A stretch of 64,000 nt of DNA from a virus. The notes below the pieces were generated by a model that searched no databases, was not told the origin of the DNA, and worked only from the letters and a program-made list of their open reading frames with translations. Location of the stretch: positions 1 to 64,000 of the IMG/VR virus record IMGVR_UViG_3300020470_000460; one strand, written 5' to 3'. The position numbers and the translations under genes are program-made. Shown here piece by piece: positions 15,225 through 56,767 of the stretch; the first letter of the stretch is position 1, and each line of letters starts with the position of its first letter.

Positions 15225-15387
15225 AAATGACCAGTTGTAAGGGGTGAGCGAAACGAAACCCAATAACCGTCAGATGAGCAATTAAGTCAGTTACTGCGGG
15301 TGGGATCGTTTCGCATGTTCATTATAACTTGACAAGTGGTCATTTTTGACTAAATCGTTACAATATGCAACAAAAAAGTCCAGTTTG

Positions 15388-15786
15388 TCAACTGTCTACT
15401 AATTCATATTGTTTATTGAAGATCTGTTTTGTTACATCTTCATTTATATAATTCTCTATGTATTCTTTACAACTAGCAACAGTAGGGAATGCTGCTATTC
15501 TTTCATAAGTCCATAAAGTATTGCCATTAAATATCATCGGGTTGAGCACTTTATCTGTTGCAGATATAAACCTTTTCATGCCTTCTGCATTGCCTAATTG
15601 ACATGCAATACGTGCATTAACCCTGTATTCATCATCAGTTTCACCACTATAATAAGTATTCTCAACTATAGTAAATGATGGTAATTGTTTACCATTAACA
15701 TTAACACTATCGTCAGTGTGATAGATGTCCTCATAGTATTTGAGTTCATCATTATCTCTTTGACTATTTGTTATTTGTAATGCCAT
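15388..15786 (-). CDS. Hypothetical protein, 132 aa
   Basis: The acidic product (MALQITNSQRDNDELKYYED at the start) has a central helix-rich region (VNARIACQLGNAEGMKRFI) and no motif I recognise. Its start overlaps the preceding gene's end by 23 nt. It is one of the early-type small genes between 15.4 and 17 kb. Confidence 0.6.
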   Translation of the reverse strand: MALQITNSQRDNDELKYYEDIYHTDDSVNVNGKQLPSFTIVENTYYSGETDDEYRVNARIACQLGNAEGMKRFISATDKVLNPMIFNGNTLWTYERIAAFPTVASCKEYIENYINEDVTKQIFNKQYELVDS

Positions 15787-15961
15787 TTTCGAGATCAGAT
15801 AATAGGTCAGTTACGTGTATTAAATTATCAATATTATGCAGCATATCTGCAATATGTTTTGATACATAGGATGCTTCAGTTCTTGCACTAAATGATAACG
15901 CATTGCGTAAATCTTGTTGTGCTTCTATTAAACTTTCTTCAACTTGTTTGCTTAAAGTCAT
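15764..15961 (-). CDS. Helical hypothetical protein, 65 aa
   Basis: The sequence is almost entirely helical (SKQVEESLIEAQQDLRNAL, then HIADMLHNIDNLIHVTDLL) with heptad-like leucines. It overlaps the next gene by 23 nt. No family recognised. Confidence 0.55.
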   Translation of the reverse strand: MTLSKQVEESLIEAQQDLRNALSFSARTEASYVSKHIADMLHNIDNLIHVTDLLSDLENGITNNK

Positions 15962-15963
15962 AA

Positions 15964-16131
15964 TTAATAACCATTAATATAGGATGCTAAACTATCAATC
16001 ATATCATTATATGTAGCATACTTATGTACATAAAAATGAGGGATATTATCACTAGGTAGATAATAATATCCCTTTGGATTGATTGATCTATTGATGAATA
16101 GATTCATGTTGTGAGTGTTACTTACTGACAT
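15964..16131 (-). CDS. Hypothetical protein, 55 aa
   Basis: An ATG at 16131 opens a 55-codon frame, tyrosine-rich (GYYYLPSDNIPHFYV), that ends 2 nt before the next gene and overlaps the upstream frame by 10 nt. The snug fit supports it; function unknown. Confidence 0.55.
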   Translation of the reverse strand: MSVSNTHNMNLFINRSINPKGYYYLPSDNIPHFYVHKYATYNDMIDSLASYINGY

Positions 16132-17002: not shown

Positions 17003-17641
17003 TTATCCAGGTACAATATTTGCACTAAGTGTTATTAACTCATTGCTTGGGTTACTATCATAACCAAACGTTAAATTGCTAGGGAAAGTTATAATATCTC
17101 CTTCTGCCATTTTAAATGTTGCTTCAGTCATATTATACTGTGTTAATTGTTTAGAATTGAGTTGCATTATTGGATAATGATTAGACCCTACATTCTTCCT
17201 CCATTTAATATAACTATGTGCTTCAGGATTGTAGTTAACTAAGTATATACTATGGTACAAACAGTTACTAACTTCGTGAGGTGCATAAATGGCATCCTTA
17301 TTTGATAACTCTAAATATGACTCATTAACTCTTAGATCAGTATTATAGTGCATTGAGTTATCATTATGCTGTGCAATTGCAGTTTTGAAAGCATCAGCAA
17401 CATCAGGCAAATCTGTCAATAGTTTATTAGTTTCACCAATTTGTACCACGTTGTGAGTTATACTTTCACGACCTGATTTCTTCAATATATCTTCATCACC
17501 CATCCAATTTAGGATTTGAGTTTTAAGATCTGTGTGATTACTAAGTGAGAACTTACTGATAGGAGTTGGGAACAAACCATAAGTTTCATTCGTAATCTTA
17601 TCCTCTAAAGTATCACTTAGTGGGTGCTTAGTTTCTGTCAT
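17003..17641 (-). CDS. Degenerate 2OG-Fe(II) oxygenase-like protein
   Basis: The 212-aa protein follows the plan of the phage 2OG-Fe(II) oxygenases in this window: an N-terminal G-L-F-P-T-P-I-S opening, a central beta region, and a late TFPSNL strand. The usual iron and 2OG ligands are gone. The distal His after FPS(N/W)L is replaced (LTFGYD), and the Arg of the final R-I-S-h-S-F-N strand is missing (ELITLSANI). It may be an inactive paralogue, a binding or scaffold protein, or a structural derivative. The next gene upstream (17650-18273) is a canonical relative. Confidence 0.5.
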   Translation of the reverse strand: MTETKHPLSDTLEDKITNETYGLFPTPISKFSLSNHTDLKTQILNWMGDEDILKKSGRESITHNVVQIGETNKLLTDLPDVADAFKTAIAQHNDNSMHYNTDLRVNESYLELSNKDAIYAPHEVSNCLYHSIYLVNYNPEAHSYIKWRKNVGSNHYPIMQLNSKQLTQYNMTEATFKMAEGDIITFPSNLTFGYDSNPSNELITLSANIVPG

Positions 17642-17649
17642 TTTATACG

Positions 17650-18273
17650 TTAATTAATGGGTTGTTCTTTACTATTATACCATGCCCAATCTTTATTATT
17701 AGGGTCTAACATTGAGTTTGTTAATTTAACACCAGTTGGATCAAATGTAGGGAAAACTAATCCCCAACTACAACGATATCCCTCGGTTGGACATTCACCA
17801 CGATGCAAAGTATTGGAATTAAATAATACTAACCGTCCTTCCTTAAATGATATTCTTTCAATATCATTGTTATCATCATCAACAATAACTGTGTCACCTG
17901 AGTTACCATAACCCATGTAAATTACAGTCATATAATTATCATCATCAGAGTCACGATGATTCATTCCGTTCATACTTTCCAGAGGAAATTGTCCGTTATG
18001 TAAACATCTATACGTGTTAGATATATTTAATTCTTTACATATATCGTGCTTAATTGCGTCTATTAAATAAAAAATAAACCAATGTGGAGATTCTTTTAAT
18101 TGCCAATTGTCTTCGATGAGTAACATATTACCCATGAATCGCTTGCCTTTCTTGATAGTATAATCAGAAGTATTATCCCATCTAACTGGCATCATACACA
18201 TGTAATCTCTTACCTGTTGTACCATCCAATCAGGGAAATAATCATCTATAATTTTATACTCACCTGGTTTCAT
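17650..18273 (-). CDS. 2OG-Fe(II) oxygenase (prolyl hydroxylase-like)
   Basis: This 207-aa protein has a clean iron facial triad, H106-x-D108 (NHRDSD) and H157 (SNTLHRGE), with the 2OG-binding Arg at R167 (GYRCSWG). These are spaced as in the P4H-type double-stranded beta helix. Such enzymes use O2 and 2-oxoglutarate to hydroxylate proteins, nucleic acids or small molecules; the substrate here is unknown. It lies 8 nt before the degenerate relative, suggesting tandem duplication followed by decay of one copy. Confidence 0.85.
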   Translation of the reverse strand: MKPGEYKIIDDYFPDWMVQQVRDYMCMMPVRWDNTSDYTIKKGKRFMGNMLLIEDNWQLKESPHWFIFYLIDAIKHDICKELNISNTYRCLHNGQFPLESMNGMNHRDSDDDNYMTVIYMGYGNSGDTVIVDDDNNDIERISFKEGRLVLFNSNTLHRGECPTEGYRCSWGLVFPTFDPTGVKLTNSMLDPNNKDWAWYNSKEQPIN

Positions 18274-18470
18274 TTGTTATAACGTGCTTCACGATCTTTC
18301 TTCGCTTGTGTTGCTTTAGCAATGATATCTTTCAACTCTTCAGTAGCATTTATCCTCTCAGATATTGACTGTTTGAGTTCATCTCCATCCATTTCTAGGT
18401 TTGAATATTTATTAGTTAACTCCTGTAATTTACGCAGTGCACGTGCTGCTTCATCTGCTTCTTGTGTCAT
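18270..18470 (-). CDS. Coiled-coil hypothetical protein, 66 aa
   Basis: Almost all of the 66 residues form predicted helix with heptad spacing (ALRKLQELTNKYSNLEMDG, then a Lys/Glu-rich tail). Overlaps of 4 nt at both ends tie it to neighbouring genes. Possible oligomerisation adaptor; function unknown. Confidence 0.6.
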   Translation of the reverse strand: MTQEADEAARALRKLQELTNKYSNLEMDGDELKQSISERINATEELKDIIAKATQAKKDREARYNK

Positions 18471-18739
18471 AATTGTTTACTAACAAACTCCTTATTTGTG
18501 ATGTTATTTGTTAACAATTCATGGGCATTTTTGAGCAATTCTGCCCTATTAGAATGGTAATTTATGCTATCTTGTAATGCTGTCCTGACACAACTTACAA
18601 ATTCTCCAGGAGTTAGCACTTCAGACTCAACATAATCTACCACTGCATCTCTGATGTGATGTATACATGCGTTGACATCTTGTTGGTGCATCGCTGCTGG
18701 ATGCTCTGTCTCTGTCACATTTATATTAGAATTAGTCAA
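18467..18739 (-). CDS. Hypothetical protein, 90 aa
   Basis: Helical product with a His-rich stretch (PAAMHQQDVNACIHHIRDA) and a small charged C-terminus. It overlaps neighbours by 4 and 8 nt. No recognised family. Confidence 0.55.
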   Translation of the reverse strand: MTNSNINVTETEHPAAMHQQDVNACIHHIRDAVVDYVESEVLTPGEFVSCVRTALQDSINYHSNRAELLKNAHELLTNNITNKEFVSKQL

Positions 18740-19778: not shown

Positions 19779-20397
19779 ATGTAGGGTATAAGAATTTCTT
19801 TGCTGGTCTTGTGCTACCAAATACACATGTCACAATATGTGCATCATGCTTTGATATCTCAAGAGTAGAGAATCCATTATTATTCTTTACTTCACCAGTC
19901 TTCTTGTCTTTCTTCTGATCATCTCTCCATCTTGTGATAAGAGGTAGAGTCCTCTGTGATAAATCAACTACACTTGCATGTATTTGATCAAACCCATTGT
20001 TGTCATTATACACTAATTTTGTGCAGAAAACAAGGTCAACCTTAGTTTTACTGTGATTGTTACCAGTTGCAAACGCATGAGGTGACTTGGTACCGAGAGA
20101 TAGTTTATTCTCTACCTTCTGCTTCTCTACGATACAATCATAACCAATGCCCTCCTCTTCAATGTAATCCACACCTAGTTCTTTAGCAACTCTACCTAGT
20201 TGGACATTGAAGATAGGTGCAACATACTTAGTCCTATCAACAGTTTGTTGAAACCATTCTCCTAAGTGTGCAAACTCTCCATCACCTGCAATTTCAACAC
20301 ATTTAGCAATCCTCTCTGATGTGCGAGTGAGAGCAAGTGGAATGATTTGTTTGAGATCAGCAGCGATGTCGTCGTGCGATGGGGGACGTAATTTCAT
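19759..20397 (-). CDS. Predicted restriction-endonuclease-like protein, PD-(D/E)xK fold suspected
   Basis: This 212-aa protein overlaps the start of the adjacent DNA methyltransferase by 20 nt. Near residues 85-98 it shows a hydrophobic strand with Asp87 (IGYDCIVEK), then E96-N-K98 on the next strand. That arrangement fits the D...ExK metal site of PD-(D/E)xK nucleases, and a further strand follows (VDLVFCTKLVY). Length is typical of type II restriction enzymes. No specific restriction family is recognisable by eye, so the nuclease call is inferred from motif and context. Alternative: a methyltransferase accessory or unrelated protein. Confidence 0.5.
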   Translation of the reverse strand: MKLRPPSHDDIAADLKQIIPLALTRTSERIAKCVEIAGDGEFAHLGEWFQQTVDRTKYVAPIFNVQLGRVAKELGVDYIEEEGIGYDCIVEKQKVENKLSLGTKSPHAFATGNNHSKTKVDLVFCTKLVYNDNNGFDQIHASVVDLSQRTLPLITRWRDDQKKDKKTGEVKNNNGFSTLEISKHDAHIVTCVFGSTRPAKKFLYPTYVPTNQ

Positions 20398-20428
20398 CGT
20401 TTTTAAAATTCTATAGTACTATTATACA

Positions 20429-21382
20429 TCAATCAGAGTCATCTGTATCAGCAGTGCCACCACTTTGTAAACTGGCATACAGTCCCAATCTCTTCTCTAT
20501 TAAATTAGAATAGTCCTTGTGTAACTCACATCCTAGGTAGTATCTACCCAACTCCTTTGCTACCATTGCAGTGGTACCACTGCCCATAAAGGGATCTAAT
20601 ACTATATCACCCCTCTCACTACCTGCTCTAATACATGGTACAATGAGGTCTCTAGGGAATGTAGCAAAGTGTGATCCCTTGTATGGTTTATTAGTTACCG
20701 ACCATACACTTCTCTTATTCTTAGTAGGGTATGATTTACTAAGACCAGAGTGAGGTGTGAGTCCTGTCCCTTTATTGTGATACTTACCTTTTGTCCTGTC
20801 CCTCGTGCCCCAATCCCTAGCAGGTTCTTTAATAGCGTCATTGTTATAATAATATTTCTTGCTTTTACTCAATAAAAATATATACTCGTGTGACTTTGTG
20901 CACCTATCCTTCACACTCTCAGGCATTGGATTAGGTTTATGCCATATTATATCCTGTCTTAAATACCATCCATCAGCACGTAATGCAAATGCTAACATCC
21001 AAGGTATACCAATTAAATCTTTTTCTTTGAGTCCTTCGAGTCTATTTCCTCTACGAGGACACACATCTGGTAGGTCTTGTCTAGTATTTGAGACTGTCTG
21101 TTTTGCCAGTCCTTGTCCCCTTCCAGGTCTGTAATTATAGTAACTATCGCCAATATTAACCCAACAAGTTCCATCATCTGTGAGCACATTTCGCACCTCC
21201 CTGAATACCTTTACCAAGTTATCTATGTATTCTTCAGGAGTTTGCTCCTGACCTATTTGATCTTTCTCACCACCATAGTCCCTAAGACCATAATAAGGCG
21301 GTGACGTTACACACATCCTCGCCTTATCGATAAATGCTGATAATGTCTCACGACAATCACCATACAATATGGTATCCTTCAT
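20429..21382 (-). CDS. Second DNA methyltransferase (beta class)
   Basis: The 317-aa protein has TSPPYYGLRDYG (motif IV at 26-30) near the N-terminus and LDPFMGSGTTA (motif I, ~262-272) late, the beta-class order again. Early GDCRETL and mid HKPNPMPESV blocks match a frequent phage/bacterial family of site-specific methyltransferases. It could protect phage DNA against host restriction or belong with the neighbouring nuclease. The C-terminus overlaps the next gene by 4 nt. Substrate base and site unknown; it need not share specificity with the first enzyme. Confidence 0.9.
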   Translation of the reverse strand: MKDTILYGDCRETLSAFIDKARMCVTSPPYYGLRDYGGEKDQIGQEQTPEEYIDNLVKVFREVRNVLTDDGTCWVNIGDSYYNYRPGRGQGLAKQTVSNTRQDLPDVCPRRGNRLEGLKEKDLIGIPWMLAFALRADGWYLRQDIIWHKPNPMPESVKDRCTKSHEYIFLLSKSKKYYYNNDAIKEPARDWGTRDRTKGKYHNKGTGLTPHSGLSKSYPTKNKRSVWSVTNKPYKGSHFATFPRDLIVPCIRAGSERGDIVLDPFMGSGTTAMVAKELGRYYLGCELHKDYSNLIEKRLGLYASLQSGGTADTDDSD

Positions 21383-22549: not shown

Positions 22550-22875
22550 GATGTAATGTCCTTGGGTAGATCTTCATTGCCTGGATGTTCTTTAATAACA
22601 CCCTTGTAATTCTTTTTATTATAGAAGTGCTCATCTTCAATATACATATCATCCCACTCATCAGGATATACTAGCACATTTGTCTGTGCTACACCATGCA
22701 ATGTGTCTTTCTTCTCCCATTCATGTGTGGTAACAGTAATATACTGATCACTTATGAAATTAATAACACCCTCATCTCCATCCTTTAACCTAACCTTCAT
22801 ACCTTTCTTCAATGATTTAAGAATGTTTCTTATCTCCAAAGGAATTGCCTCCGCTAAGAATATAGGAATGGTCAT
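22546..22875 (-). CDS. Conserved cyanophage hypothetical protein, 109 aa
   Basis: Residues ~20-45 look like a small beta-barrel start (KKGMKVRLKDGDEGVINFIS) with a VLVYPDEWDDMYIED segment later, a pattern I recall in a common cyanophage protein of unknown role. It lies between purC and an oxygenase with 4 nt overlaps. Confidence 0.65.
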   Translation of the reverse strand: MTIPIFLAEAIPLEIRNILKSLKKGMKVRLKDGDEGVINFISDQYITVTTHEWEKKDTLHGVAQTNVLVYPDEWDDMYIEDEHFYNKKNYKGVIKEHPGNEDLPKDITS

Positions 22876-23495
22876 AGTTTTAATTGATGGTCATATCCGA
22901 GACCATACTCACCTCTTAATATGTAATTGAATGCCATAGAATACCTCTCGTCATTACTATTATTAATATTAATAGAATGTGTTAGATGTGATGGGAAGCA
23001 TATTATCATACCATCCTGCGGTGTGATCCTTGATACCCTCATATTATATGTGTTGTATTCCTTAACCTCTGGATATAGAGTAGTAGTACACCACGTAGGG
23101 TAAGTAGCAGGGACATAAAATGATATATCACCACTATTATATGGTATCTGAAAATACATAACACCACTGAATTGTGCGTTGTTATGTGAATGACCGTGCC
23201 CACTATCACCAGGATTATGTTTATTAATCCATGATGTTGTGTGCTCTAATTGATGTTTAGTCTCGTCTACTTGTAACACATCGTAGACATATTTTGATAC
23301 ATGATACTCAACTGTTGCCCTTATTTCTGGTTGTGATACCAACCACTGAGTTTCACTCATCCAACCATTACTATATCCTCCATTGTCATGTTTACAAGGA
23401 GTATTAATAACCTGCTGAATCATTGCATCAGTCAGATCTATTTTATTAATATATAATGGATTGGAAAATAAAGGAACTATCTGAGGATCTCTCAT
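22872..23495 (-). CDS. 2OG-Fe(II) oxygenase (PF13759-like)
   Basis: The 207-aa protein shows the phage 2OG-Fe(II) pattern: HGHSHNN followed by FSGVMYF (first metal His at 102/104), then ICFPSHLTHSI (H173) and ERYSMAFNY (Arg184 for 2-oxoglutarate). The N-terminal VPLFSNPLY opening is also typical. Predicted activity is hydroxylation of an unknown substrate. It is one of five related genes between 22.9 and 26.5 kb. A lone Asn after the HxH leaves slight doubt about the third ligand. Confidence 0.85.
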   Translation of the reverse strand: MRDPQIVPLFSNPLYINKIDLTDAMIQQVINTPCKHDNGGYSNGWMSETQWLVSQPEIRATVEYHVSKYVYDVLQVDETKHQLEHTTSWINKHNPGDSGHGHSHNNAQFSGVMYFQIPYNSGDISFYVPATYPTWCTTTLYPEVKEYNTYNMRVSRITPQDGMIICFPSHLTHSININNSNDERYSMAFNYILRGEYGLGYDHQLKL

Positions 23496-23496
23496 A

Positions 23497-23733
23497 TCAA
23501 ATATGTTTCATGTGCAAAGTATCAATAATTGATTCAATCAGTCCCCTATCATTCTCTGGAACATTTCCATAATGCTCGCAAGCATCTTTTTGATAGAAGA
23601 ATAGTGCCTTCTTTAATAACTCTTTCTGATCGTGATTAAGAATGGCAGTTTTGAGTGACATGTACATTTGTGACCCCTTCCCCATTAGGTCTTGTGCAGA
23701 ACTATTTATTAGTGTATCTAGTTTCTTGGTCAT
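23497..23733 (-). CDS. Hypothetical protein, 78 aa
   Basis: Helical protein (TLINSSAQDLMGKGSQMYMS, then KKALFFYQKDACEHYGN) inserted between two oxygenase genes. It overlaps the upstream gene by 4 nt. A partner or small cofactor protein for the oxygenases is possible; nothing in the sequence shows it. Confidence 0.55.
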   Translation of the reverse strand: MTKKLDTLINSSAQDLMGKGSQMYMSLKTAILNHDQKELLKKALFFYQKDACEHYGNVPENDRGLIESIIDTLHMKHI

Positions 23734-24440
23734 GTCAACAGTAATTTCTCGATTGTCTTGGAATCGAAACCAACGACTCCCATATCATTAGGTGGTGCAA
23801 TACCACGTTTGTTATCCATCTCAGCACTGGTGAATAAACTTTGTCTCTTTTTTGGTTCCATGTACTTAAAGGACATGATATATCTATTTATCGGATACCT
23901 ATTGGTTGGTGGTCTACCTGAATGGGGTACTCTCCCATCAAATACTACTATTCTACCAGGTATAGGTGACACAATACGTTGTGCTTCTAACCTATGGTCA
24001 TAGAATACAGTCTCACCACCAAAGTTAGGATTCCATTCAGGGTTAAGATATAATACTACTGTCTTATTATCCTCTACCCAATATGGTGCGTCTACATGCA
24101 CACCAGGTGTATCACCTGCCTTAAGCACATTAATATATGCACTGTATAACCAGTCACGAGGGGGCATTTTTGGGCAAATTGCTTCCAAATATTCCAGACA
24201 TTCTAGGTATAGTGGATCCTCACTCGCATCTAGTCCTGAATTTTGAAAGTAAGTAGGATCACTAACTGGTGTGAAATTATATAATTGATGTGTCCAATAT
24301 GTATTCTCTAATTGTACCTCTGGTCTTGCTGGAGTTGGTGGATCATCTGTCCGTGTGAACATATAAGGTAAGAACATTACCTTATCAAATAATTCTTGTG
24401 ATGCTAGTTTAGTATCAAATACTTCAATTGGAAAGTTCAT
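23730..24440 (-). CDS. 2OG-Fe(II) oxygenase
   Basis: This 236-aa protein has H115-x-D117 (GVHVDAPYW), then H173 in DGRVPHSGRPP and a nearby Arg (R181 or R186), a complete prolyl-hydroxylase-type site. The C-terminal 40 residues (KKRQSLFTSAEMDN onward) form an extra tail. The N-terminus differs from PF13759 members, so this is a separate subfamily. The C-terminus overlaps the 78-aa gene and the start overlaps the JmjC gene by 17 nt. Confidence 0.87.
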   Translation of the reverse strand: MNFPIEVFDTKLASQELFDKVMFLPYMFTRTDDPPTPARPEVQLENTYWTHQLYNFTPVSDPTYFQNSGLDASEDPLYLECLEYLEAICPKMPPRDWLYSAYINVLKAGDTPGVHVDAPYWVEDNKTVVLYLNPEWNPNFGGETVFYDHRLEAQRIVSPIPGRIVVFDGRVPHSGRPPTNRYPINRYIMSFKYMEPKKRQSLFTSAEMDNKRGIAPPNDMGVVGFDSKTIEKLLLT

Positions 24441-25194
24441 GAGTGTTTAGTTTATACCATTTTCTATTAATAGGTCTCAAGTGTGGTAACATATGCTGCA
24501 TAGGTACACTAACAGACAATCTCTTACCAGTTGGCATCGCTTGATGATAACAACGTGCTGGAATGTATAATATATCACCTGGTTTTAATACGTGATCTAT
24601 TACACAATTCATCTCTCCTACATTCTCATCATGCTCAAGAGAATCAACTGCAACACTACTTACTTCAAAATCAAACTCATCCTTCAATTGCTTAGGTATC
24701 TTCAATAGATTACTACATCTATTACTATATACTTTCCAATGTGTCTCTCCTTCTACTTGTATTATAAAATTATTTGCTGTGTCTTCATGCACTCTGAATG
24801 AATGACATGGACCTAAACCTGCATAGATATGAAATGCTGTCTTACCATCAAAATATTTCTCAAACTCTTGTATTAATTCTTGCTTCTTACGGAACCCTTG
24901 ATCGAAATTATTAATAATTAAATTATGTCCTTCCTCCCATGCTTGCATTATATCTTTTACTTCAGCACATGGATTTGACCAACAACGTTCATACTGTTTA
25001 AGATCAAAGAACTGTATGATCTGCTTATCAATAAATGTAATAGAATAGAATTGTGGATTGTTGAGACAATACTCTACATCATCCCATGTTGCAAATACAT
25101 GAGGATCCTCAACAATACCTTCCCATAGTTCAGGTGCATCATCAATTGCCCAGTTTTTTGCTGTCGATATTTTAGTTAGAAGCGAAGATATCAT
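24424..25194 (-). CDS. JmjC/cupin-type oxygenase
   Basis: The 256-aa protein has H136-E-D138 (RVHEDTANNF), then VLKPGDILYIPARCYHQAMP with H217, the JmjC arrangement found in ribosomal oxygenases and FIH-like enzymes. A Lys at 154 (HWKVYS) could bind 2-oxoglutarate. Such proteins hydroxylate amino-acid side chains in bacteria (for example the YcfD ribosomal protein hydroxylase). Its start overlaps the next oxygenase by 23 nt. A cyanophage ribosomal or structural-protein hydroxylase is possible; the substrate is unknown. Confidence 0.85.
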   Translation of the reverse strand: MISSLLTKISTAKNWAIDDAPELWEGIVEDPHVFATWDDVEYCLNNPQFYSITFIDKQIIQFFDLKQYERCWSNPCAEVKDIMQAWEEGHNLIINNFDQGFRKKQELIQEFEKYFDGKTAFHIYAGLGPCHSFRVHEDTANNFIIQVEGETHWKVYSNRCSNLLKIPKQLKDEFDFEVSSVAVDSLEHDENVGEMNCVIDHVLKPGDILYIPARCYHQAMPTGKRLSVSVPMQHMLPHLRPINRKWYKLNTHELSN

Positions 25195-25831
25195 GATCGC
25201 ATTTAAAATTAATGTTTAATGTTACACGGTACGCATGGTTACCGTATGGATTAGTTGAAGCATGGAACTGATGTCCATCGAATACAAATAAACTATTTGC
25301 TTCAGGTGTTACTCTCTTATGTATAGTATATTCTTGGTTCCTTCCTTTATACCATCTCTCATCTACAGTCCCATAGTTAGGGTCATCATATTGATCAAAG
25401 AATACTGTATCACCATTTGAATCATGTAGATAAAATAGTGCTGCATAATGATCTTCTTCATTATCAGTGTGTGGACAGTTATGGTGTCCCTCCTTACCTA
25501 TGTCTGTTATTAATGCTAATCTTAATCTAAAAAACTCTACCTCATGTGGTAGAGAATCTTGTATAGCATCTATCAATGGTAAGAAATGGGGTAACCAAGG
25601 ACTCTCTACACCATCCTGATCTAATAACATATGGACAAACCCGATGGATCTCTCCTTCTCAGGCACTTCATTCCTTATCTCTTCACCACCAAATTTCATA
25701 TCAGTAGCGAAATCATATGATATATCCTCTGATATAAAATACCAAGGAAATCCATTTTGTCCCGATACTATTTTATTTAAGCGAGAGAGGTACGTTGGAC
25801 CTATTATATCTTTTTTGTGGATATACTTCAT
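25172..25831 (-). CDS. 2OG-Fe(II) oxygenase
   Basis: I chose the Met at 25831 (MKYIHKKDIIGPTYLS) because upstream codons are hydrophobic and overlap the neighbouring gene. The 219-aa product has H121-T-D123, a DTVFFDQYDDP strand, H190 in DGHQFHAS and Arg202 in YRVTLNINFK. The overlap with the PF13759-like gene upstream is 59 nt, unusual even here. Substrate unknown. Confidence 0.85.
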   Translation of the reverse strand: MKYIHKKDIIGPTYLSRLNKIVSGQNGFPWYFISEDISYDFATDMKFGGEEIRNEVPEKERSIGFVHMLLDQDGVESPWLPHFLPLIDAIQDSLPHEVEFFRLRLALITDIGKEGHHNCPHTDNEEDHYAALFYLHDSNGDTVFFDQYDDPNYGTVDERWYKGRNQEYTIHKRVTPEANSLFVFDGHQFHASTNPYGNHAYRVTLNINFKCDHDIFASN

Positions 25832-26459
25832 CTTCACGATAATAATCAGAGAATACGTGCATATTAAATGATAGAGATATTCTATCATCCTCACTAGCAC
25901 TTCTATCAACGCTGTGCATTAACCATGATGGAAATATTACCATAGTACCAGGTTTTGGTTGCACATACCAATTGACGTAATTATGCTGATGCTCATGCCT
26001 ATCAAAATTCTCATCGCATCCCCATGATTCTTTGAGACATTGATCTGCATATGGTCTGTGGAATTGTAATTCACCACAACAGCAGTTAGGTATCTTTGCA
26101 TAGTATACACCAGCAAACATTGATCCTGAATGCGTGTGGACTGCATTACTATCACCATACTTATTAATGTTTGCCCAGAGATTACTTAATCTAACAGTAT
26201 AATCATTAAATCCAAACTCATCAGCAGCAGCATATGTATTTAATTGTATCTGCTTATGTAAGTCTTTAAATGGTGTGTTATCAATATATGGTACTACAAA
26301 ATTATTTGATTGCCATCCACCGATATTAGATTTACTCATACCTTTAGGATCTTCCTTCTGCACCTCATAGATAAAATCTACTATTAGATCATTATCTAGA
26401 TCACAGTCCTCAAATATCCACAGTGGTGTGGGAAATAATAACTCAGTCCTTAGTTGCAT
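25773..26459 (-). CDS. 2OG-Fe(II) oxygenase (PF13759-like)
   Basis: The 228-aa protein shows H108-T-H110 (AVHTHSGSMFAGVYY), a Cys-rich turn (PNCCCGELQF), H182 in FPSWLMHSV and Arg193 in DRISLSFNM. It shares the N-terminal FPTPLWIF strand with the oxygenase at 33687-34304, so the two are probably paralogues. The three adjacent cysteines could be a metal or disulfide site. Substrate unknown. Confidence 0.88.
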   Translation of the reverse strand: MQLRTELLFPTPLWIFEDCDLDNDLIVDFIYEVQKEDPKGMSKSNIGGWQSNNFVVPYIDNTPFKDLHKQIQLNTYAAADEFGFNDYTVRLSNLWANINKYGDSNAVHTHSGSMFAGVYYAKIPNCCCGELQFHRPYADQCLKESWGCDENFDRHEHQHNYVNWYVQPKPGTMVIFPSWLMHSVDRSASEDDRISLSFNMHVFSDYYREDEVYPQKRYNRSNVPLSLK

Positions 26460-33686: not shown

Positions 33687-34304
33687 TTATATCAGATATT
33701 TACCACCGTGTCCTTGATTCTGAGCAAAGGGATTATGTTCACTTATGTCTAAGCAACTACTCATACCCTCAAAATCAGCAGACAAATTGAATGCGATAGA
33801 TATCCTATCATCATCACTCTCATTCTCAGTCACGTCATGCTCCAACCATGATGGGAAATATATTAATGTCCCTGGTTGTGGTTCGATTTCGTGATAATCT
33901 AAACCATCATTAAAATACTCATGATCTCTTTGCACTTGGACTAATGGACCTCTAGGATCCCAAAATCTTATGCTACCTGAGTATTTAGGCACCTTCACAT
34001 AGTATACTCCTGATAATAATATATTAGTATCAGCATGTAAATGCCTCTTATTACTAGCACCTTTAGGGTTTATATTACACCAAGAGTATACACACAAATC
34101 CTTTAATGGTTTGTCCTCTCTAAATGGACAATTAGCAGCAATAAGATCTACCCAATCCCTATTATAAAACAAATCACCCTGATAACCTCCATTACTGGAG
34201 TAAGGGTGATTAGGTTCAGTCTTAGAGAAATTATATATCTCTTCTGCTAACTTATCATTGTCAAAATCAATTCTCTTAATCCAGAGAGGGGTGCCAAATA
34301 TCAT
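33687..34304 (-). CDS. 2OG-Fe(II) oxygenase between fibre genes
   Basis: The 205-aa protein begins with GTPLWIKRID, has H88-L-H90 (RHLHADTNIL) before LSGVYYVKVP, H156 in FPSWLEHDV and Arg167 in DRISIAFNL. These are PF13759-like and closely match the oxygenase at 25773-26459. Being flanked by fibre genes makes a structural-protein substrate more likely than for the others; that is inference. Confidence 0.87.
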   Translation of the reverse strand: MIFGTPLWIKRIDFDNDKLAEEIYNFSKTEPNHPYSSNGGYQGDLFYNRDWVDLIAANCPFREDKPLKDLCVYSWCNINPKGASNKRHLHADTNILLSGVYYVKVPKYSGSIRFWDPRGPLVQVQRDHEYFNDGLDYHEIEPQPGTLIYFPSWLEHDVTENESDDDRISIAFNLSADFEGMSSCLDISEHNPFAQNQGHGGKYLI

Positions 34305-44536: not shown

Positions 44537-45439
44537 CTAGATTTTGGCAAGGAACCTGTTGTACACTCCTCTTTTCTTAAGAAAAGTGTGGTTTAGGTGA
44601 GCAGTGCTCACACTCAATTGGACTTGACCGTCTTCCTTGTCCAAGAGTCGGTCAGTAGTCAAACAAAGTAACTGATACATCATCGTTAGACGACCTTCAT
44701 TACTCATGTATGCTGCTTTACCTTCTCCTTCCCAAAAATCTACAAGATCTTTTAGAAGTGGGACACTACCATTACCTAGTACTGTATCCTCAAAGTGTTC
44801 CATGAGGATTTCGGCAGCATCACGTAAACCATTGTTAACACATAGGGTTGACCATGCTCCAATAGTCTTTCTGCTGCCAGACCAGTCAGTACAAGAAGCG
44901 AAGAAACTCGATACAATCTTATCTGACTCGATAATGTAGCTTTTCCAATATTCCCATTGATGTATCGCATTGTTAATGGTGAGTTCTTCACCTCTGCGAC
45001 GCTTTAACAGGTCTTTCATCACTGCTACATTTTCAGGTGTAGCAGACTCATCTACCCTATGGATCTCATCAATTGGTTTACGAGGTTTTGCTAGTGCACA
45101 CTTGGAGAAGCAATTTGCTTCTACCCCAGTGACAACTATAACTGTAAACAGTTCTCTTGGATCTCGTTTTGAGATTGCATTTAACCTATGCTGTGCCTCA
45201 GTGAGGTTACCTTCTTTGTTGAAGGTTATAGGTTGACCATCCAAGAGCCACCCTTGCTGATTAATATTATTACTAATCTTTTTAGCATGGGTCTTTGACA
45301 TCTTTCTGTTGTCAAAGTTGTGATACTTTAGCAGGTATTCTGCTATCTCACTGTTGATTCGACAAGTCAAGGCTTCATACACCTGTGACTTAGGGTTAAA
45401 AGGAAGAGCGATTTTGTCTTCCAGTATACTTAAGGCCAT
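44537..45439 (-). CDS. ParB/sulfiredoxin-like domain protein, 300 aa
   Basis: Around residues 69-90 the sequence reads QPITFNKEGNLTEAQHRLNAIS, close to the GQPI.hd..G.h.DGqHRh.A pattern of ParB-like nuclease and sulfiredoxin folds (E81-AQHRL). The rest is helical with a Cys-containing C-terminal half. Phages carry such proteins beside DNA-modification or replication genes. Role here unknown; no nuclease residues are certain. Confidence 0.62.
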   Translation of the reverse strand: MALSILEDKIALPFNPKSQVYEALTCRINSEIAEYLLKYHNFDNRKMSKTHAKKISNNINQQGWLLDGQPITFNKEGNLTEAQHRLNAISKRDPRELFTVIVVTGVEANCFSKCALAKPRKPIDEIHRVDESATPENVAVMKDLLKRRRGEELTINNAIHQWEYWKSYIIESDKIVSSFFASCTDWSGSRKTIGAWSTLCVNNGLRDAAEILMEHFEDTVLGNGSVPLLKDLVDFWEGEGKAAYMSNEGRLTMMYQLLCLTTDRLLDKEDGQVQLSVSTAHLNHTFLKKRGVYNRFLAKI

Positions 45440-45476: not shown

Positions 45477-48206
45477 CTAGTTCAGCAAAACTGGCAAGCC
45501 GAAGACCTGACAAGGACCAGCAGCACAACCCACTGCCATGTAACCGTTGTTGACCACATATGCTCCTAAACCATTGTTACATTGGTTAATAATAGCACCC
45601 TGTGGCACGAACTCAGCGATAACACCAGTAGGTGCTGAAATAAAGGTAGCATGGAATGCATTGGTAGACCCTGCAAGGATATCTGCCATGCTACTAGGCA
45701 TTTGCTGACCTACTGATATTCTAACCTGTGTAGGTGGTGCAACTCCTGGGAATGGTAGGTCTGTAGTTATATCAACAATACATCCCTTAACCATAGCAAA
45801 CTGTCCAGTCAAGGACGTTGCTGTCATATTGAATAGTGCAATAAACTCAAATCTACCTGAGTTTAAGAATGATGATATCCAGTTGGCCTGGTTGATTATC
45901 TCACCATCAGCAACATTTTCAATGGTATTACCTTCTATCTTGACGTTTTGAGAGTTGATCATCAACGACTCAATAGCAGCATAACTTGTCTTCGCTGCTT
46001 GTACCTTTAACTCACCACTGACTGCAATATCTCTATCACCCTCAAATCTTTCGGAAGACTTCTGCTCTGTAGAGTCATTAAGAGTACCTGATAACTGAGG
46101 TCCAGTCCTAGTACGTCCCATATAGTCAGCACCAGGATCGAAAGGTATCTCCTCTGTTGGATAGAAACCACCTATATTTTCCTTATTTAATTTCTTAGTC
46201 CTTGCTGAAGGACCATATAATGCTAAGTCTTGTGACTGAGATATCACATCATCTGATACTGTACCCTGAGTAACATTAGTATCTACCTGTGCCATAGCAC
46301 CACCAACAGTATTGGTAGCAGGTGCTTCTGAGGATCCAGAAGATTCTGACTGTGGACCTTGAGAGTAGTGACCATTCCATGATCCTTCTACCTCTTGGTG
46401 CATATTACCCATGACCTTAATATAAAAGTCACCCTCTACTGTTAGACAGTAGTTACCTTTAATATTCTCACACTTGTCCTTAGCAATAATCTTAGTTTCA
46501 TTGTTAGGTACATTGGTATGTCTGTTACCCCAACTATCTTCAAACGTGCTGACACCACCAGGTCCACTAACTACTCTCTTAACTTTACCTTCAGTAGCAT
46601 CATCTATAATTCTTGTACCATTAAGATGACTTGATACCTGCATCAGATATGGATTGGTATCCTTAAACATCTGATCGATATAAGAACCAGTAACTTCTGG
46701 TGCACTAGTCGGTGTCGCTGCCATATTCAGTGACGTTAGGTCTTCTCCTGATAGACCTGCCCCTTGATAATCTACATTGATTAAACTATTAACACTTTCA
46801 TAAGGAGTACCTCTAACAGCATCTTCTATGTTGTCACACTCAGTGGATCCTATCAGTGGGAACCACCCCTTAGACTTCGGCCTCTTTATCTTCCTGTTAC
46901 AACTCTTTTTAAATAGTGCTCCTAGAATTGCCATAAGGATTTGAAGGAGACTACCCCAGTCTAATGAGGTGAAATCAAATTCAAATATAGATTGCACTGT
47001 CTCACCCAGTGCCATTGCCTTACCTAGCATACCTTTGGCAGTGCTGATAGCAGAGATAACATCACCAGCAACATCCTTAACACGATTCATTGCAGATGTG
47101 ATACCACCCAAGACACGATTGCTTATTCCTTTAACAGCAGAATCAATAGTCTTACCTAATTTAGACGTAGCTATCTTATCTACAGCAAGGCTCGCCATTT
47201 GGTTAGCAAAGTTTGCCGTATCACTCAGTGCTCCCTTCACCAGTCCTAACCACATTGGTGTCTTAGCACAGAATAGTGCGAAGATCTGATCCAAGAATGA
47301 CATCAATAGGTTAACAACTATCAGTGGTACGAATGAAGATATAATCTTCACTAGCATTCCTACAACCTCAGCAATTAACTTTGCCATCACCTCTTTCAAG
47401 GGTGCAAGAATACCTGCTATACCACCAGAAAGGAAGTTCATTGTCTTCCCTAGGTGCTCTCTAACTTTATCTCCTGCTATATTCTTACCAGTAATTAAGG
47501 ATACAAATCCTTTCTCAGCTTTACCTAATGCTGCTGACATGTTACCTAACTCAGTCAGCATCCTCTTTAAATCTTTCTCAAATCCACCACCAGCAGGACC
47601 AGCAACACCATCTCCAATTGATTGCATCTCAACAGGTGGTTTTATGGGGTGTGTTACTACATTACCAGGCGTTGTTGCCTCTGCCATGTTAATACCACCA
47701 CCTCTTGCCTCCTCCTGTTTTCCTGTTGCAGATGCAGGTGTGTTTTCATTCTTAGGGAATGGGTTTCCACTCCTTGCATTATTATTAGCAAGGTCAGTCT
47801 GTTGTGGAGTGCTAGTCTTTAATTCATTTGCAGGTCCAGCATCTGCAATAGTCGTGGCACCATCTGACTGTTCTTGTGAAAATCCTCTGAAAGCACCCAA
47901 TACACATGGTAACTGTGCTTCTTCACCATCAAGGAAGAAACCTAATACCCATGCTCCTGGTTGTAATTCTGTTGTAGTACCTGCTGACTTAGTTTGTGGT
48001 TGGTCAGTTGGTAGTAATACTGTTGCCCAAGGAAGTACCTCTTTAGGTACCTCTTCTAAGTATGCCTTTCCTTCTGAGTTACCTGTATACCAACCAAGGA
48101 TACGCACCTTGATACGACCTAGCTCGGAAGGATCTCGAATCTCTTCGACTTCTCCTACCCACCAAGTAAATGTATCTCTTCCAAGATAATCGGTACGTAC
48201 GCCCAT
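45477..48206 (-). CDS. gp5: Baseplate hub / spike protein gp5 (lysozyme-free)
   Basis: The first ~110 residues form an OB-fold-like domain (FTWWVGEVEEIRDPSELGRI, then VKVRILGWYTG, later PGAWVLGFFLDGEE), as in T4 gp5/VgrG. The centre is Ala/Gly/Leu-rich helix. Residues ~540-600 (for example GNRHTNVPNNETKIIAK, then VEGDFYIKVMGNMHQEVEG) match the gp5 spike's beta-helix start. T4 gp5 carries a lysozyme domain between the OB fold and the helix; none is evident, so wall degradation must come from elsewhere. A late box lies 21 nt upstream. At 909 aa it is longer than T4 gp5 (575). Confidence 0.82.
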   Translation of the reverse strand: MGVRTDYLGRDTFTWWVGEVEEIRDPSELGRIKVRILGWYTGNSEGKAYLEEVPKEVLPWATVLLPTDQPQTKSAGTTTELQPGAWVLGFFLDGEEAQLPCVLGAFRGFSQEQSDGATTIADAGPANELKTSTPQQTDLANNNARSGNPFPKNENTPASATGKQEEARGGGINMAEATTPGNVVTHPIKPPVEMQSIGDGVAGPAGGGFEKDLKRMLTELGNMSAALGKAEKGFVSLITGKNIAGDKVREHLGKTMNFLSGGIAGILAPLKEVMAKLIAEVVGMLVKIISSFVPLIVVNLLMSFLDQIFALFCAKTPMWLGLVKGALSDTANFANQMASLAVDKIATSKLGKTIDSAVKGISNRVLGGITSAMNRVKDVAGDVISAISTAKGMLGKAMALGETVQSIFEFDFTSLDWGSLLQILMAILGALFKKSCNRKIKRPKSKGWFPLIGSTECDNIEDAVRGTPYESVNSLINVDYQGAGLSGEDLTSLNMAATPTSAPEVTGSYIDQMFKDTNPYLMQVSSHLNGTRIIDDATEGKVKRVVSGPGGVSTFEDSWGNRHTNVPNNETKIIAKDKCENIKGNYCLTVEGDFYIKVMGNMHQEVEGSWNGHYSQGPQSESSGSSEAPATNTVGGAMAQVDTNVTQGTVSDDVISQSQDLALYGPSARTKKLNKENIGGFYPTEEIPFDPGADYMGRTRTGPQLSGTLNDSTEQKSSERFEGDRDIAVSGELKVQAAKTSYAAIESLMINSQNVKIEGNTIENVADGEIINQANWISSFLNSGRFEFIALFNMTATSLTGQFAMVKGCIVDITTDLPFPGVAPPTQVRISVGQQMPSSMADILAGSTNAFHATFISAPTGVIAEFVPQGAIINQCNNGLGAYVVNNGYMAVGCAAGPCQVFGLPVLLN

Positions 48207-48225: not shown

Positions 48226-48681
48226 TTATTTATCAAGTCTCTCAAAGAGAAATTCACCTTCCTCTTCAGGTTTGCCCCATCGAAACTTACCAGTCTTTAA
48301 ATCATACCCAGTATCTATAGCACGATAATGATCACCATTGAATCTTATTTTTGAGACCATCCTCGTGTCACCCTGGATGCATTCTCCATCAGTATTCCCA
48401 TTCCACCAAACTCCATCCCAGTGCCAAATGAAAGGACAGGTAGGAGTACCAGTAATAATATTAGTAGTTTTAGTATAGACGATGTTTTCATCCATCCTCT
48501 GCCAATCGTACTGTATGTAATTATATGGATCGTCTTCTCCCTTATACTTATACCAAGACTTAGCTAATAGTATACCATAACTAGGTTCAACTATTCGTAT
48601 ATCAATCTGAGGCCATTGTGAAGGATTAGAGAATGCTTGATTTCTATTCCTATAGTGACCTACTACTTCATTAAACAGCAT
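48226..48681 (-). CDS. cpeT: CpeT/CpcT-type phycobilin lyase
   Basis: The 151-aa protein has the CpeT plan: an N-terminal NRNQAFSNPSQWPQIDIRI block, a Tyr-rich centre, a WWNGNTDGECIQGDTRMVSK stretch matching the family's Cys-loop, and DTGYDLKTGKFRWGKPEE, close to the family's D-R-G-h-D...h-W-G-a end. CpeT-like lyases attach bilins to phycobiliproteins. Cyanophages carry them as auxiliary genes to keep the host's light harvesting or bilin pool working. It lies between gp5 and a 2OG oxygenase, among virion genes. Confidence 0.78.
   Translation of the reverse strand: MLFNEVVGHYRNRNQAFSNPSQWPQIDIRIVEPSYGILLAKSWYKYKGEDDPYNYIQYDWQRMDENIVYTKTTNIITGTPTCPFIWHWDGVWWNGNTDGECIQGDTRMVSKIRFNGDHYRAIDTGYDLKTGKFRWGKPEEEGEFLFERLDK
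48227..48234 (-). promoter_or_regulatory. Late promoter (GATAAATA) before gp5
   Basis: GATAAATA on the minus strand, 21 nt before the gp5 start. It lies in the end of the cpeT gene. Confidence 0.55.
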
Positions 48682-49327
48682 TAATCTCTTTCCAATTTAT
48701 AGGATCTATAATAGCAAACTCATTATTATTTTTAGCAGTGACTATTATATCATATGATAAAGAATAACGTGGAGTGCTACCATTATATACTTCTACCTCA
48801 TGCTCTATATGAGATGGGAATATGAATAGTCTATCCTCTTCAGGTACATACTGTGTATCACCATAGGTAAGATCATTCAATTCTTCTACATGTATAGGCA
48901 TCCTATGAGTATTAGGTGAATGGAATTTAAGTTTACCACCAGTCAACGCACTACCTGTCTTAGGATAATATACTACTGATATTACTGAGTTTGGATGTGT
49001 GTGTTTATATATCTGACCTCCTCTCTCTATAATCACAGGCCATGCCTTTGATGCAAATATTTTAACCTTATCTATATCAACGTTGAAAGCACTAAGATAT
49101 TTCTGACAATGAAAAGAGACCTCACGGTTTAACCAGTGAAATCTCTTATCGTTAAACATCTTATAATCTTGGTCGTTATCCCCTGAATAACTACCCTTTT
49201 CTACCCTATCTGACTTACGATAGGTATCATAAATCTCCTCAAAATACTCAAGCATTTGTTGCTTGGTATCTTGAGATGGTTTTAAGTCTTCATGATATAT
49301 TGCGGTTGGAAACCAAAGATCAATCAT
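48671..49327 (-). CDS. 2OG-Fe(II) oxygenase (PF13759-like) beside cp12
   Basis: 218-aa protein with H109-T-H111 (IYKHTHPNSVISVVYY), H176 in FPSHIEHEV and Arg187 in PRYSLSYDI. It overlaps cpeT by 11 nt and ends where cp12 begins to be read in order, giving a cp12-oxygenase-cpeT cassette. Substrate unknown. Confidence 0.85.
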   Translation of the reverse strand: MIDLWFPTAIYHEDLKPSQDTKQQMLEYFEEIYDTYRKSDRVEKGSYSGDNDQDYKMFNDKRFHWLNREVSFHCQKYLSAFNVDIDKVKIFASKAWPVIIERGGQIYKHTHPNSVISVVYYPKTGSALTGGKLKFHSPNTHRMPIHVEELNDLTYGDTQYVPEEDRLFIFPSHIEHEVEVYNGSTPRYSLSYDIIVTAKNNNEFAIIDPINWKEINAV

Positions 49328-49555
49328 TTAATCATCATATACTAAACATTCTGGTTCGTCTGGATGCTGGTCGCAGAATAACTCTAGACAAGTTGGATCG
49401 TGGTGATCTCCTGCAACAATCTCATCATGGTGATGCTCTTCGTACTCAATTAAATCGTGCAACTCTTCCTTGTAGTGTCTGCGAGCAGCAGGATTCAATG
49501 TAGGATCATCAAGGAGCTCTTTATCGTGCTCAATATGTTGCTCTATAGTTGTCAT
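49328..49555 (-). CDS. cp12: CP12 Calvin-cycle inhibitor
   Basis: This 75-aa protein ends with CLELFCDQHPDEPECLVYDD. The final Cys pair (C61, C70), N-P/H-P core and E-C-x-x-Y-D-D match CP12's GAPDH-binding tail. The usual central helix is an Asp/His-rich substitute. CP12 binds GAPDH and PRK to stop the Calvin cycle; phage CP12 with talC would favour NADPH and pentose synthesis. The canonical EC-R is EC-L here, and a third Cys (C56) is extra. A CATAAATA late box (49580-49587) lies 25 nt upstream. The function is established for the family; the altered R is notable. Confidence 0.85.
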   Translation of the reverse strand: MTTIEQHIEHDKELLDDPTLNPAARRHYKEELHDLIEYEEHHHDEIVAGDHHDPTCLELFCDQHPDEPECLVYDD

Positions 49556-49579: not shown

Positions 49580-49587
49580 TATTTATG
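49580..49587 (-). promoter_or_regulatory. Late promoter (CATAAATA) before cp12
   Basis: CATAAATA on the minus strand, 25 nt before the cp12 start. It indicates late expression of the cp12-oxygenase-cpeT cassette. Confidence 0.5.
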
Positions 49588-51133
49588 CTTCTTGCTTAGG
49601 AACTGAGTCCCTAACCAGGTATAGTTTAGTCGTTAATCCAGTTTTTTGGTAGATATGTGTGAGTCCCGCAATAATATACTTACCACTGAACCTATAATCT
49701 AACAAAACTTCCTCATCTTCCTCTGTAGAAGAAGGTATCTTTACATCGATTACATTACCTGCTGTTAATGCAGTATTACCAGCAACGGTGAGATTTAACT
49801 TAATTGCCTTGAATAAATTATACCTTGCTGCTGCATATTGTGCAACTGCAATAGAGTCAATGTTGGGGCTTGATCCGTTATCAACATTCGCATTACTACT
49901 CTGATTCTTCATACCAGGCAATGCCCTGATCTTCATCCTAGTAGGTTGTGATGCTTCAATATCAAAGAATTCTGGTATAAGGAATGGTGGTTGTGCTTGG
50001 TTACCCCTTGTTTCATCATTACCATCTACTACTTTATTTGCCTTTGCAAATACCTGTTGGAAATTAAGTACCTTAAGAGCACTGATTGTACCACTAGGTG
50101 CTGATGATAAACCAGTACCAGAGAATTGTCCAGTCTCTTGATCAAAACCAACAGCATCTACAGACTCATTTGGTGCTGCCTCTTTCTTCTTACCAGATGT
50201 AGGAGTATAACTATCCTTCTGTGATGCTAATGATATACCAATAGCAGCAGTCTTATAGGTACCCATCCTCATGTTAGATAGATGATTTGCCTTATCAGGA
50301 TATGTTAGTGTCTCGATAGCATACCTCTTATCTGCTCCTTCTTGAGCACCTTGCACGTAAGTATATGTGTAGACACCATTCCTAGTTGCTTCACCCTTAG
50401 CAATACTATCAATAGATCTAAAGTTAAATCCATTCCTATTTGACCAGAATAAGAATCCAGACTGTTTAGCACCACCCTTACTATTGGTCAATCTAGTTAC
50501 CTTATCTGATAGGTAATGAATAGCATCACTAGGTTTCCAACTACATGCTATGAAAGTATATTTGGAATGATTCTCAAAATTATATTTGTTTGCCTTATTA
50601 GTACCCTTAGTCTTAAGGAATTCATCACAGATATACTTTGGTATATTCTCTACATCCTTAGACTTTTCTCCTGGTCCTAATGACTTAAAGATCTTATTAC
50701 TCTCATCATGATACATCTCTGGAGATACACAGTGTAAGATATACAACTGTCCTCTCTCAGTCTTTGAGATACTACCAATCTTATAGACAGTCAGTTCACA
50801 ATCTAAATGATCACCCCTGATAGCAGTACCAGTTACCATCTTAATCTTAACTTTCTCACCACCCTGTAGATTTTTATTCCAGTCAATAGCATCTAAGATA
50901 CTGATGTCACATCTTAAGAAAGAAGACTCAATAGATTCATGGTACTGAAATTCCAATACCATTTCAGTTATATCATACAGTTTCTTACCGTTTGCTGTCT
51001 CTAACTGTAACTTCTGAATCTCAAAGTCTCTAGCATTATCAGCATTAAAAGATCCTCCAAATGGACTAGCACCATAACTGATCCTCTGCCATGCAGTCTT
51101 TACATCATTAATATATTCTATTACTTGTGACAT
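49583..51133 (-). CDS. Baseplate hub protein, gp27-like position, 516 aa
   Basis: Begins MSQVIEYINDVKTAWQRIS and has mixed beta/alpha composition with several Lys/Asn-rich loops. It sits next to the tape-measure-like genes and near gp5, as T4 gp27 does. Segments such as YDITEMVLEFQYHESIESSF fit a hub tube-like domain, but I cannot prove gp27 homology. Probably a central hub or tail protein. Confidence 0.65.
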   Translation of the reverse strand: MSQVIEYINDVKTAWQRISYGASPFGGSFNADNARDFEIQKLQLETANGKKLYDITEMVLEFQYHESIESSFLRCDISILDAIDWNKNLQGGEKVKIKMVTGTAIRGDHLDCELTVYKIGSISKTERGQLYILHCVSPEMYHDESNKIFKSLGPGEKSKDVENIPKYICDEFLKTKGTNKANKYNFENHSKYTFIACSWKPSDAIHYLSDKVTRLTNSKGGAKQSGFLFWSNRNGFNFRSIDSIAKGEATRNGVYTYTYVQGAQEGADKRYAIETLTYPDKANHLSNMRMGTYKTAAIGISLASQKDSYTPTSGKKKEAAPNESVDAVGFDQETGQFSGTGLSSAPSGTISALKVLNFQQVFAKANKVVDGNDETRGNQAQPPFLIPEFFDIEASQPTRMKIRALPGMKNQSSNANVDNGSSPNIDSIAVAQYAAARYNLFKAIKLNLTVAGNTALTAGNVIDVKIPSSTEEDEEVLLDYRFSGKYIIAGLTHIYQKTGLTTKLYLVRDSVPKQEA

Positions 51134-56760: not shown

Positions 56761-56767
56761 TATTTAG
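56761..56767 (-). promoter_or_regulatory. Late promoter (CTAAATA) before gp26
   Basis: CTAAATA on the minus strand, 23 nt before the gp26 start and overlapping the end of the tail-tube-like gene. Confidence 0.6.

Follow-up and report, generated by a model that had tools for sequence, protein, structure and literature searches.

The window analysed here, i.e. the whole stretch of 64,000 nucleotides, is part of a record of 74,410 bases from a marine cyanobacterial virus (IMG/VR record IMGVR_UViG_3300020470_000460) and has 80 predicted genes, 74 of which are on the minus strand. On this strand, the gene for a hub-type tail protein (49583..51133; phrog_350 'tail protein', E 1.8e-88) is followed by cp12 (49328..49555, 75 aa; PF02672, E 1.8e-10, 41.9 bits against a cut-off of 22.7), a gene for a 2OG-Fe(II)-oxygenase-like protein (48671..49327, 218 aa; PF13759, E 9.6e-17, 61.7 bits against a cut-off of 27; phrog_81), cpeT for a T-type phycobiliprotein lyase-like protein (48226..48681, 151 aa; PF06206, E 9.7e-10, 39.1 bits against a cut-off of 21) and gp5 (45477..48206; phrog_694 'baseplate hub and tail lysozyme', E 2.8e-163). 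The three genes between the hub-type gene and gp5 form a tight cassette (48226-49555, minus strand), in which the ATG of the oxygenase gene directly follows the cp12 stop codon while cpeT and the oxygenase gene overlap by 11 nt. The gene calls and coordinates of the three genes in a preliminary description of the sequence are correct, with all three Pfam matches above the cut-off, and the phrog_350 and phrog_694 matches bear out its placement of the cassette in the baseplate region. The late box that it noted before the cassette is likewise present: ATAAATA at 49580..49586 (minus strand) lies 31 nt before the cp12 ATG and overlaps the hub stop codon. A second ATAAATA, for gp5, is in the last codons and the stop of cpeT (48227..48233, minus strand; -27 from the gp5 ATG), and, going upstream from the hub block, a box at promoter distance is first encountered at 56761..56767 on the same strand (-29 from a predicted start at 56738). 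Beyond gp5, a 300-aa gene (44537-45439) has phrog_5931, of unknown function, as its sole match.

These boxes resemble the cyanomyovirus late promoter motif NATAAATA described in the accessible text of PMC2984593, to which we add the variant CTAAATA as a widening based on the present data. As for T4-type late promoters, they are positioned at promoter distance from gene starts: in the window, with its 74 predicted minus-strand starts, of 28 [AC]TAAATA sites on the minus strand, 11 are followed by a gene start at 23-41 nt, while 0.84 would be expected. Because ATAAATA as such is not overrepresented in the window (20 found, 25.7 expected) and the placement before starts is above chance, the signal is in the position of the boxes and not in their number. 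Among 58 distinct cp12 upstream regions from 85 cp12 loci, 31 carry a box at a distance of -27 to -34, and a box elsewhere in the 60 nt upstream of cp12 is found in none; after shuffling of these regions, a box is at that position in 1.2 on average and in 6 at most. Where cargo genes are inserted between cp12 and gp5, the cp12 box is present in 34 of 35 distinct loci and the gp5 box also in 34 of 35. By contrast, in direct cp12-gp5 loci without cargo the cp12 box is found in 15 of 70 and the gp5 box in 2 of 70. Thus, the inserted genes bring with them a promoter-like box by which gp5 would again be transcribed. From the boxes, we infer that cp12, the oxygenase gene and cpeT are expressed late. 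The conserved C-terminal Asp-Lys-stop of the CpeT group to which the window protein belongs (GATAAATAA) itself spells ATAAATA, i.e. the gp5 late box (48226-48233).

To place the cassette among relatives, we gathered 160 IMG/VR loci by cp12 (the best 80 of 284 and the best 80 of 421), which together with the window and six isolate loci make up a set of 167 that is not dereplicated and has Syn9 twice. The preliminary description had stated that auxiliary genes usually lie outside virion operons. For cp12, an unusual position is not supported, as 154 of the 167 loci have the hub gene immediately before cp12, at a distance of -40 to 150 nt in 150 loci and with a predicted overlap of 52-72 nt in the other four. 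Downstream of cp12, gp5 is found in 146 of the 167 loci, within 60 nt in 94 and behind an insert in 52. In other words, there are two layouts, one in which cp12 leads straight into gp5 and one in which cargo genes lie in between. In the 57 loci anchored on cpeT, hub and cp12 are upstream on the same strand in all 57, a figure that applies to cpeT types resembling the two queries; gp5 is found in 53, and the remaining four stretches end soon after cpeT. The neighbourhood of the cassette is ordinary for cyanomyoviruses, and for cp12 and cpeT an auxiliary gene in the virion operon is the rule. Linkage of the three genes elsewhere, for which the preliminary description had proposed a comparison of synteny, is found in P-RSM6 (NC_020855), where the order hub-CP12-2OG-CpeT-gp5 and the strand are identical to those of the window and CP12 is 81% identical, so that the genes cannot be said never to be linked elsewhere. 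However, the P-RSM6 oxygenase belongs to PF13640/phrog_61 and is located elsewhere in the oxygenase tree than the PF13759 protein of the window.

Among isolates, cp12 is in the slot between hub and gp5 in P-RSM6, S-SSM5, ACG-2014a, Syn9, P-TIM40 and S-RS29, with both cpeT and cp12 in the slot of Syn9 (cp12 15325-15537, cpeT 15497-15982) and P-TIM40 (cp12 18254-18481, cpeT 20333-20800). Other slot cargo includes ndhI and speD in P-TIM40 and tRNA genes in S-SSM5 and S-RS29. In P-HM2 and P-SSM2, cp12 is absent from the slot and hub and gp5 are together, while cp12 of P-HM1 is a neighbour of talC at 175 kb. cpeT can also be located behind gp5 (six ORFs in 39 control loci), and this is its position in P-HM2, unlike in the window. 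In 12 distinct direct loci, cp12 and gp5 overlap by 8 nt, and in direct loci (L021, L036, L050 and others) the gp5 start codon is often inside the codons for the conserved C-terminal Asp-Asp of CP12. Another protein that recurs in the slots of S-SSM5, ACG-2014a and relatives (L002:4128-4805, L003:4809-5486) looks secreted and has a short stretch rich in His/Glu; its S-SSM5 copy has no Pfam match. No hub was found in 13 of the 167 cp12 loci, which we assign, as working classes, to helicase-flanked loci, a second variable region, a psbA/psbD-cp12-oxygenase arrangement, loci before virion-like genes and one locus with a glutaredoxin-like neighbour. In L158, L167 and L168, cp12 is just before two baseplate wedge-like genes (gp25/gp6 naming), which we take to be a second virion block with cp12.

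The window CP12 keeps the C-terminal Cys pair (C61 and C70, invariant in 16 of 16 aligned phage CP12 proteins) and lacks the N-terminal Cys pair as well as the AWD_VEE core, i.e. it is not of the classical N/C form. In the accessible text of PMC3906501, cyanophages are exceptions that match the carboxy-terminal region of CP12. The CP12 proteins of two Prochlorococcus contigs (L296, L297) have the same layout and are 57% and 52% identical to that of the window. The genes beside cp12 in these contigs are presumably obg-like. The predicted window protein is, thus, classed as a host-type partial CP12 and not as the classical form; an alternative in which the N-terminal half is phage-specific and serves a new function was rejected because of the same layout in the two Prochlorococcus contigs. 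Relative to the window cp12, the loci in this comparison have a pS of 0.63-1.07, with synonymous sites near saturation, and a pN of 0.03-0.23; two loci whose CP12 differs in length were left out. In L005, CP12 is 97% identical in protein with a pS of 0.80, while the identity is 27% for hub and 26% for gp5, a slow evolution of CP12 relative to hub and gp5 that may be overstated because loci were selected for CP12 similarity. These values point to strong and long purifying selection on cp12. A recent exchange of cp12 between phages was rejected as the cause of the high identity, as synonymous sites are near saturation even at 97% protein identity. CpeT of the window is similar to 5hi8 'Antenna protein' (E 1.4e-9) and to CpcT 4o4o (9e-4); the phage CpeT in 5hi8 is of the same CpeT/CpcT family, whereas the window protein, at 151 aa, is longer than its 136-aa chain. 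We take 5hi8 to be PhiCpeT (Gasper 2017) and P-HM2 to be a close relative of the phage from which PhiCpeT comes.

For the window oxygenase, the predicted structure has a pLDDT of 82.5 and a pTM of 0.83. Its best fold matches among the 50 listed are the uncharacterised 3bvc (Z 19.9) and 2rg4 (Z 18.9), followed by PHD2 prolyl hydroxylases (Z 16.3). The profile score above the cut-off and the double-stranded beta-helix fold of the model both place the protein in PF13759. All 23 PF13759 proteins that were aligned share H109, H111, H176 and R187, and the motif is H109-X-H111...H176 where the canonical iron triad would be His-X-Asp/Glu...His. In the motif, a His thus stands in the place of the usual acidic iron ligand. 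We take R187 to be the Arg (RXS-type) for the 2OG carboxylate. The predicted protein is classed as a PF13759 member and not as a canonical-triad enzyme. The modelled fold, of prolyl-hydroxylase type, makes a protein substrate plausible, and the probable target of the oxygenase is a protein in the late phase of infection. Seven more oxygenase-like genes are present on the minus strand of the window between 17003 and 34304 (17003-17641, 17650-18273, 22872-23495, 23730-24440, 25172-25900, 25773-26459 and 33687-34304); several are clustered, and similar clusters exist in other records. Adding the slot gene and another at 67750 gives nine oxygenases for the 74-kb record.

Slot oxygenases are of several kinds. 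Those of the window group, S-RS29, L005, L011, L015 and ACG-2014a belong to PF13759/phrog_81, those of P-RSM6, S-SSM5 and L027 to PF13640/phrog_61, and the second slot oxygenase of L064 to phrog_274, while a JmjC_2 protein that is also in the ACG-2014a slot adds one more family. In 50 collected records, there are 15 oxygenases in 25.6 kb of slot sequence (from 27 records with inserts) versus 113 in 2.205 Mb elsewhere, an 11.4-fold higher density. Per kb, we count 0.586 oxygenases in the slot (34 insert loci, roughly dereplicated) and 0.09 in the first 4 kb downstream of gp5 (79 loci), and none within 5 kb upstream of the hub (0 in 398 kb; 97 loci). When cargo families are defined at 40% identity and only those of at least 100 aa are counted, 10 of 16 non-CpeT slot families are oxygenases, while the 4-kb stretch behind gp5 has 7 of 46 (Fisher p 0.0006). 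P-values are too small here, as the loci, many of them related, were picked for their resemblance to cp12 or cpeT. In a tree of 145 oxygenases, 17 of them in the slot (same-label sequences of 85% identity or more merged, ORFs below 130 aa dropped), the slot label changes eight times, at least seven of these changes being forced by well-supported branches, whereas shuffled labels give 16.3 changes on average; this is a quick tree with many weak branches, in which label changes can be losses or gains. The oxygenases of the window group and of S-RS29/L096 form one slot clade. The alternative of one oxygenase lineage travelling with cp12/cpeT is rejected by this tree. Predicted 2OG-type oxygenases of unrelated families have entered the slot repeatedly. 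An oxygenase is present in the slot of 24 of the 57 cpeT-anchored loci; it is missing in the close relatives L232, L240 and L242, and doubled in L238 and L244. Because close relatives do without it, the slot oxygenase is dispensable. Two psbA loci (L133, L291) have a PF13640-like oxygenase directly after cp12, and L134 has the same cp12-oxygenase pair; L291 is a contig in a Prochlorococcus single-cell assembly and is probably a phage. This psbA arrangement, a single class, suggests that the oxygenase is linked to cp12 and not to gp5.

Based on these data, we suggest that the interval between hub and gp5 in cyanomyoviruses is a "late metabolic slot", a fixed site in which cp12 comes first, cpeT is common and 2OG-type oxygenases have been captured repeatedly, and which would be read late. 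We regard this reading as probable, with some reserve. In this model, the T4-type late machinery would read cp12, the oxygenase gene and cpeT as a single late mRNA, as the boxes suggest, and the second box would keep gp5 expressed in spite of the inserted genes. By homology, CP12 would hold host Calvin-cycle enzymes inactive and CpeT would handle the attachment of bilin. Because unrelated oxygenases replace one another, the selected trait would be late oxygenase activity and not activity on a single fixed substrate. Against the model are the nine oxygenases in the 74-kb record and the great number of such genes in these phages, which raise the chance rate of finding one in the slot. In the accessible text of Thompson 2016 (PMC5082946), the auxiliary genes of P-HM2, cp12 included, are exclusively in the middle cluster. 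As P-HM2 has no cp12 in the slot, a middle-class cp12 in this phage and a late cp12 in the slot are both possible, and the P-HM2 result neither confirms nor refutes a late slot. Infection time courses exist for Syn9 and P-TIM40 (Chen & Zeng 2020, PMC7238727, as far as accessible), while the accessible text of Puxty 2018 (PMC5931967) does not mention cp12 or cpeT.

The first alternative is that the slot is no more than a permissive insertion site into which members of the most amplified gene family fall, and that the pairing with cp12 is not selected. The 50 records have 128 oxygenases in 2.23 Mb, and for S-SCSM1 and S-CREM1 the accessible literature gives 24 and ten, respectively; in addition, the slot also takes up ndhI, speD and tRNA genes, and close relatives lack the oxygenase. 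However, the oxygenase density is higher in the slot than in the variable region next to it, after gp5, by a factor of 6.5, the share of oxygenase families differs between the two regions as described, and the cp12-oxygenase pair is also found away from gp5 (L133, L291). We consider such passive cargo possible without being the expected answer. In a second alternative, the oxygenase would hydroxylate a virion protein such as the hub, gp5 or a tail fibre and be placed for co-production with it. A late-type box inside the baseplate block, the modelled resemblance to prolyl hydroxylases that act on proteins, and other oxygenases within 4 kb after gp5 fit this idea, but the 5 kb upstream of the hub are devoid of oxygenases, the cp12-linked oxygenase at psbA is not beside virion genes and presence varies among close relatives, all of which make it unlikely. 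Third, the oxygenase might work directly with CP12 or CpeT, e.g. with a bilin, a phycobiliprotein or a CP12 partner as the target of modification, and the tight operon of the window, the same order in P-RSM6 and the adjacency to cp12 at the psbA locus could be read in this way. The preliminary description had made a suggestion of this kind, with pigment or CP12-linked targets, for which there is no specific support: slot oxygenases come from several unrelated subfamilies, those of L005 and L027 have no cpeT in the slot, and fewer than half of the cpeT loci (24 of 57) have an oxygenase. We therefore regard a direct partnership as quite unlikely. Improbable, but attractive as a speculation, is a repeated recruitment of unrelated oxygenases behind cp12 for a shared chemistry, i.e. 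for the late consumption of 2-oxoglutarate and oxygen at a time when CP12 keeps carbon fixation blocked. If true, the Calvin-cycle block would be coupled to the carbon/nitrogen signal that the host bases on 2OG, and both the interchangeable enzyme families, JmjC-type included, and the cp12-oxygenase pair beside psbA would have an explanation. Finally, that phage CP12 has an extra role in the baseplate or its assembly and is, therefore, locked into the hub-gp5 unit and slow to evolve is very improbable: the direct layout with its frequent 8-nt overlaps, the slower evolution of cp12 than of hub or gp5 and the position before other virion-like genes in L158, L167 and L168 speak for it, but Prochlorococcus host CP12 has the same N- and C-terminal layout, the 362 matching phage records are all named Synechococcus, Prochlorococcus or cyanophages bar one 'Marine', and P-HM2 and P-SSM2 keep hub and gp5 together without cp12.

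Cyanophage auxiliary metabolic genes are usually discussed as replication-phase genes. If the model of a late-read slot is true, a widespread slot with cp12 and cpeT under late promoters would mean that in many phages the block of carbon fixation and the handling of pigment continue or begin during virion assembly, and the timing of auxiliary genes would differ between phages by gene position. Oxygenases are among the most amplified and least explained families of these phages, and the pairing with cp12 gives them a defined context for function.

Parts of this arrangement are in print. In the accessible text of Sullivan 2010 (PMC3037559), cp12 is near gp5 in some genomes and the region near gp5 is a hot spot of Synechococcus-phage genes and tRNAs, so that cp12, cpeT and the near-gp5 region are the same as in the window; the link between oxygenase and cp12, the rule that boxes bracket the cargo and the direct hub-cp12-gp5 layout are not in that text. 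The mobile zwf-gnd-petE-PTOX cassette described there is, like the slot, a recurrent auxiliary cassette of variable content, but it is found at varied genome sites, whereas the slot has, for the most part, a single location and is flanked by late-type boxes. In the literature searched, from which most subscription papers are missing as they were not searchable, neither an oxygenase slot next to cp12 nor boxes that bracket its cargo nor the repeated arrival of unrelated oxygenases came up.

Some loci come from assemblies of cellular organisms. Those of L288, L289, L290 and L292-L294 have a phage hub beside cp12 in assemblies titled Euryarchaeota, Nonlabens, Anaerolineales and Rhodopirellula and are probably binning or contamination errors. 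Among the loci from genome contigs, 7 of 10 have a hub, gp5 or psbA-cp12-oxygenase context and resemble phage contigs.
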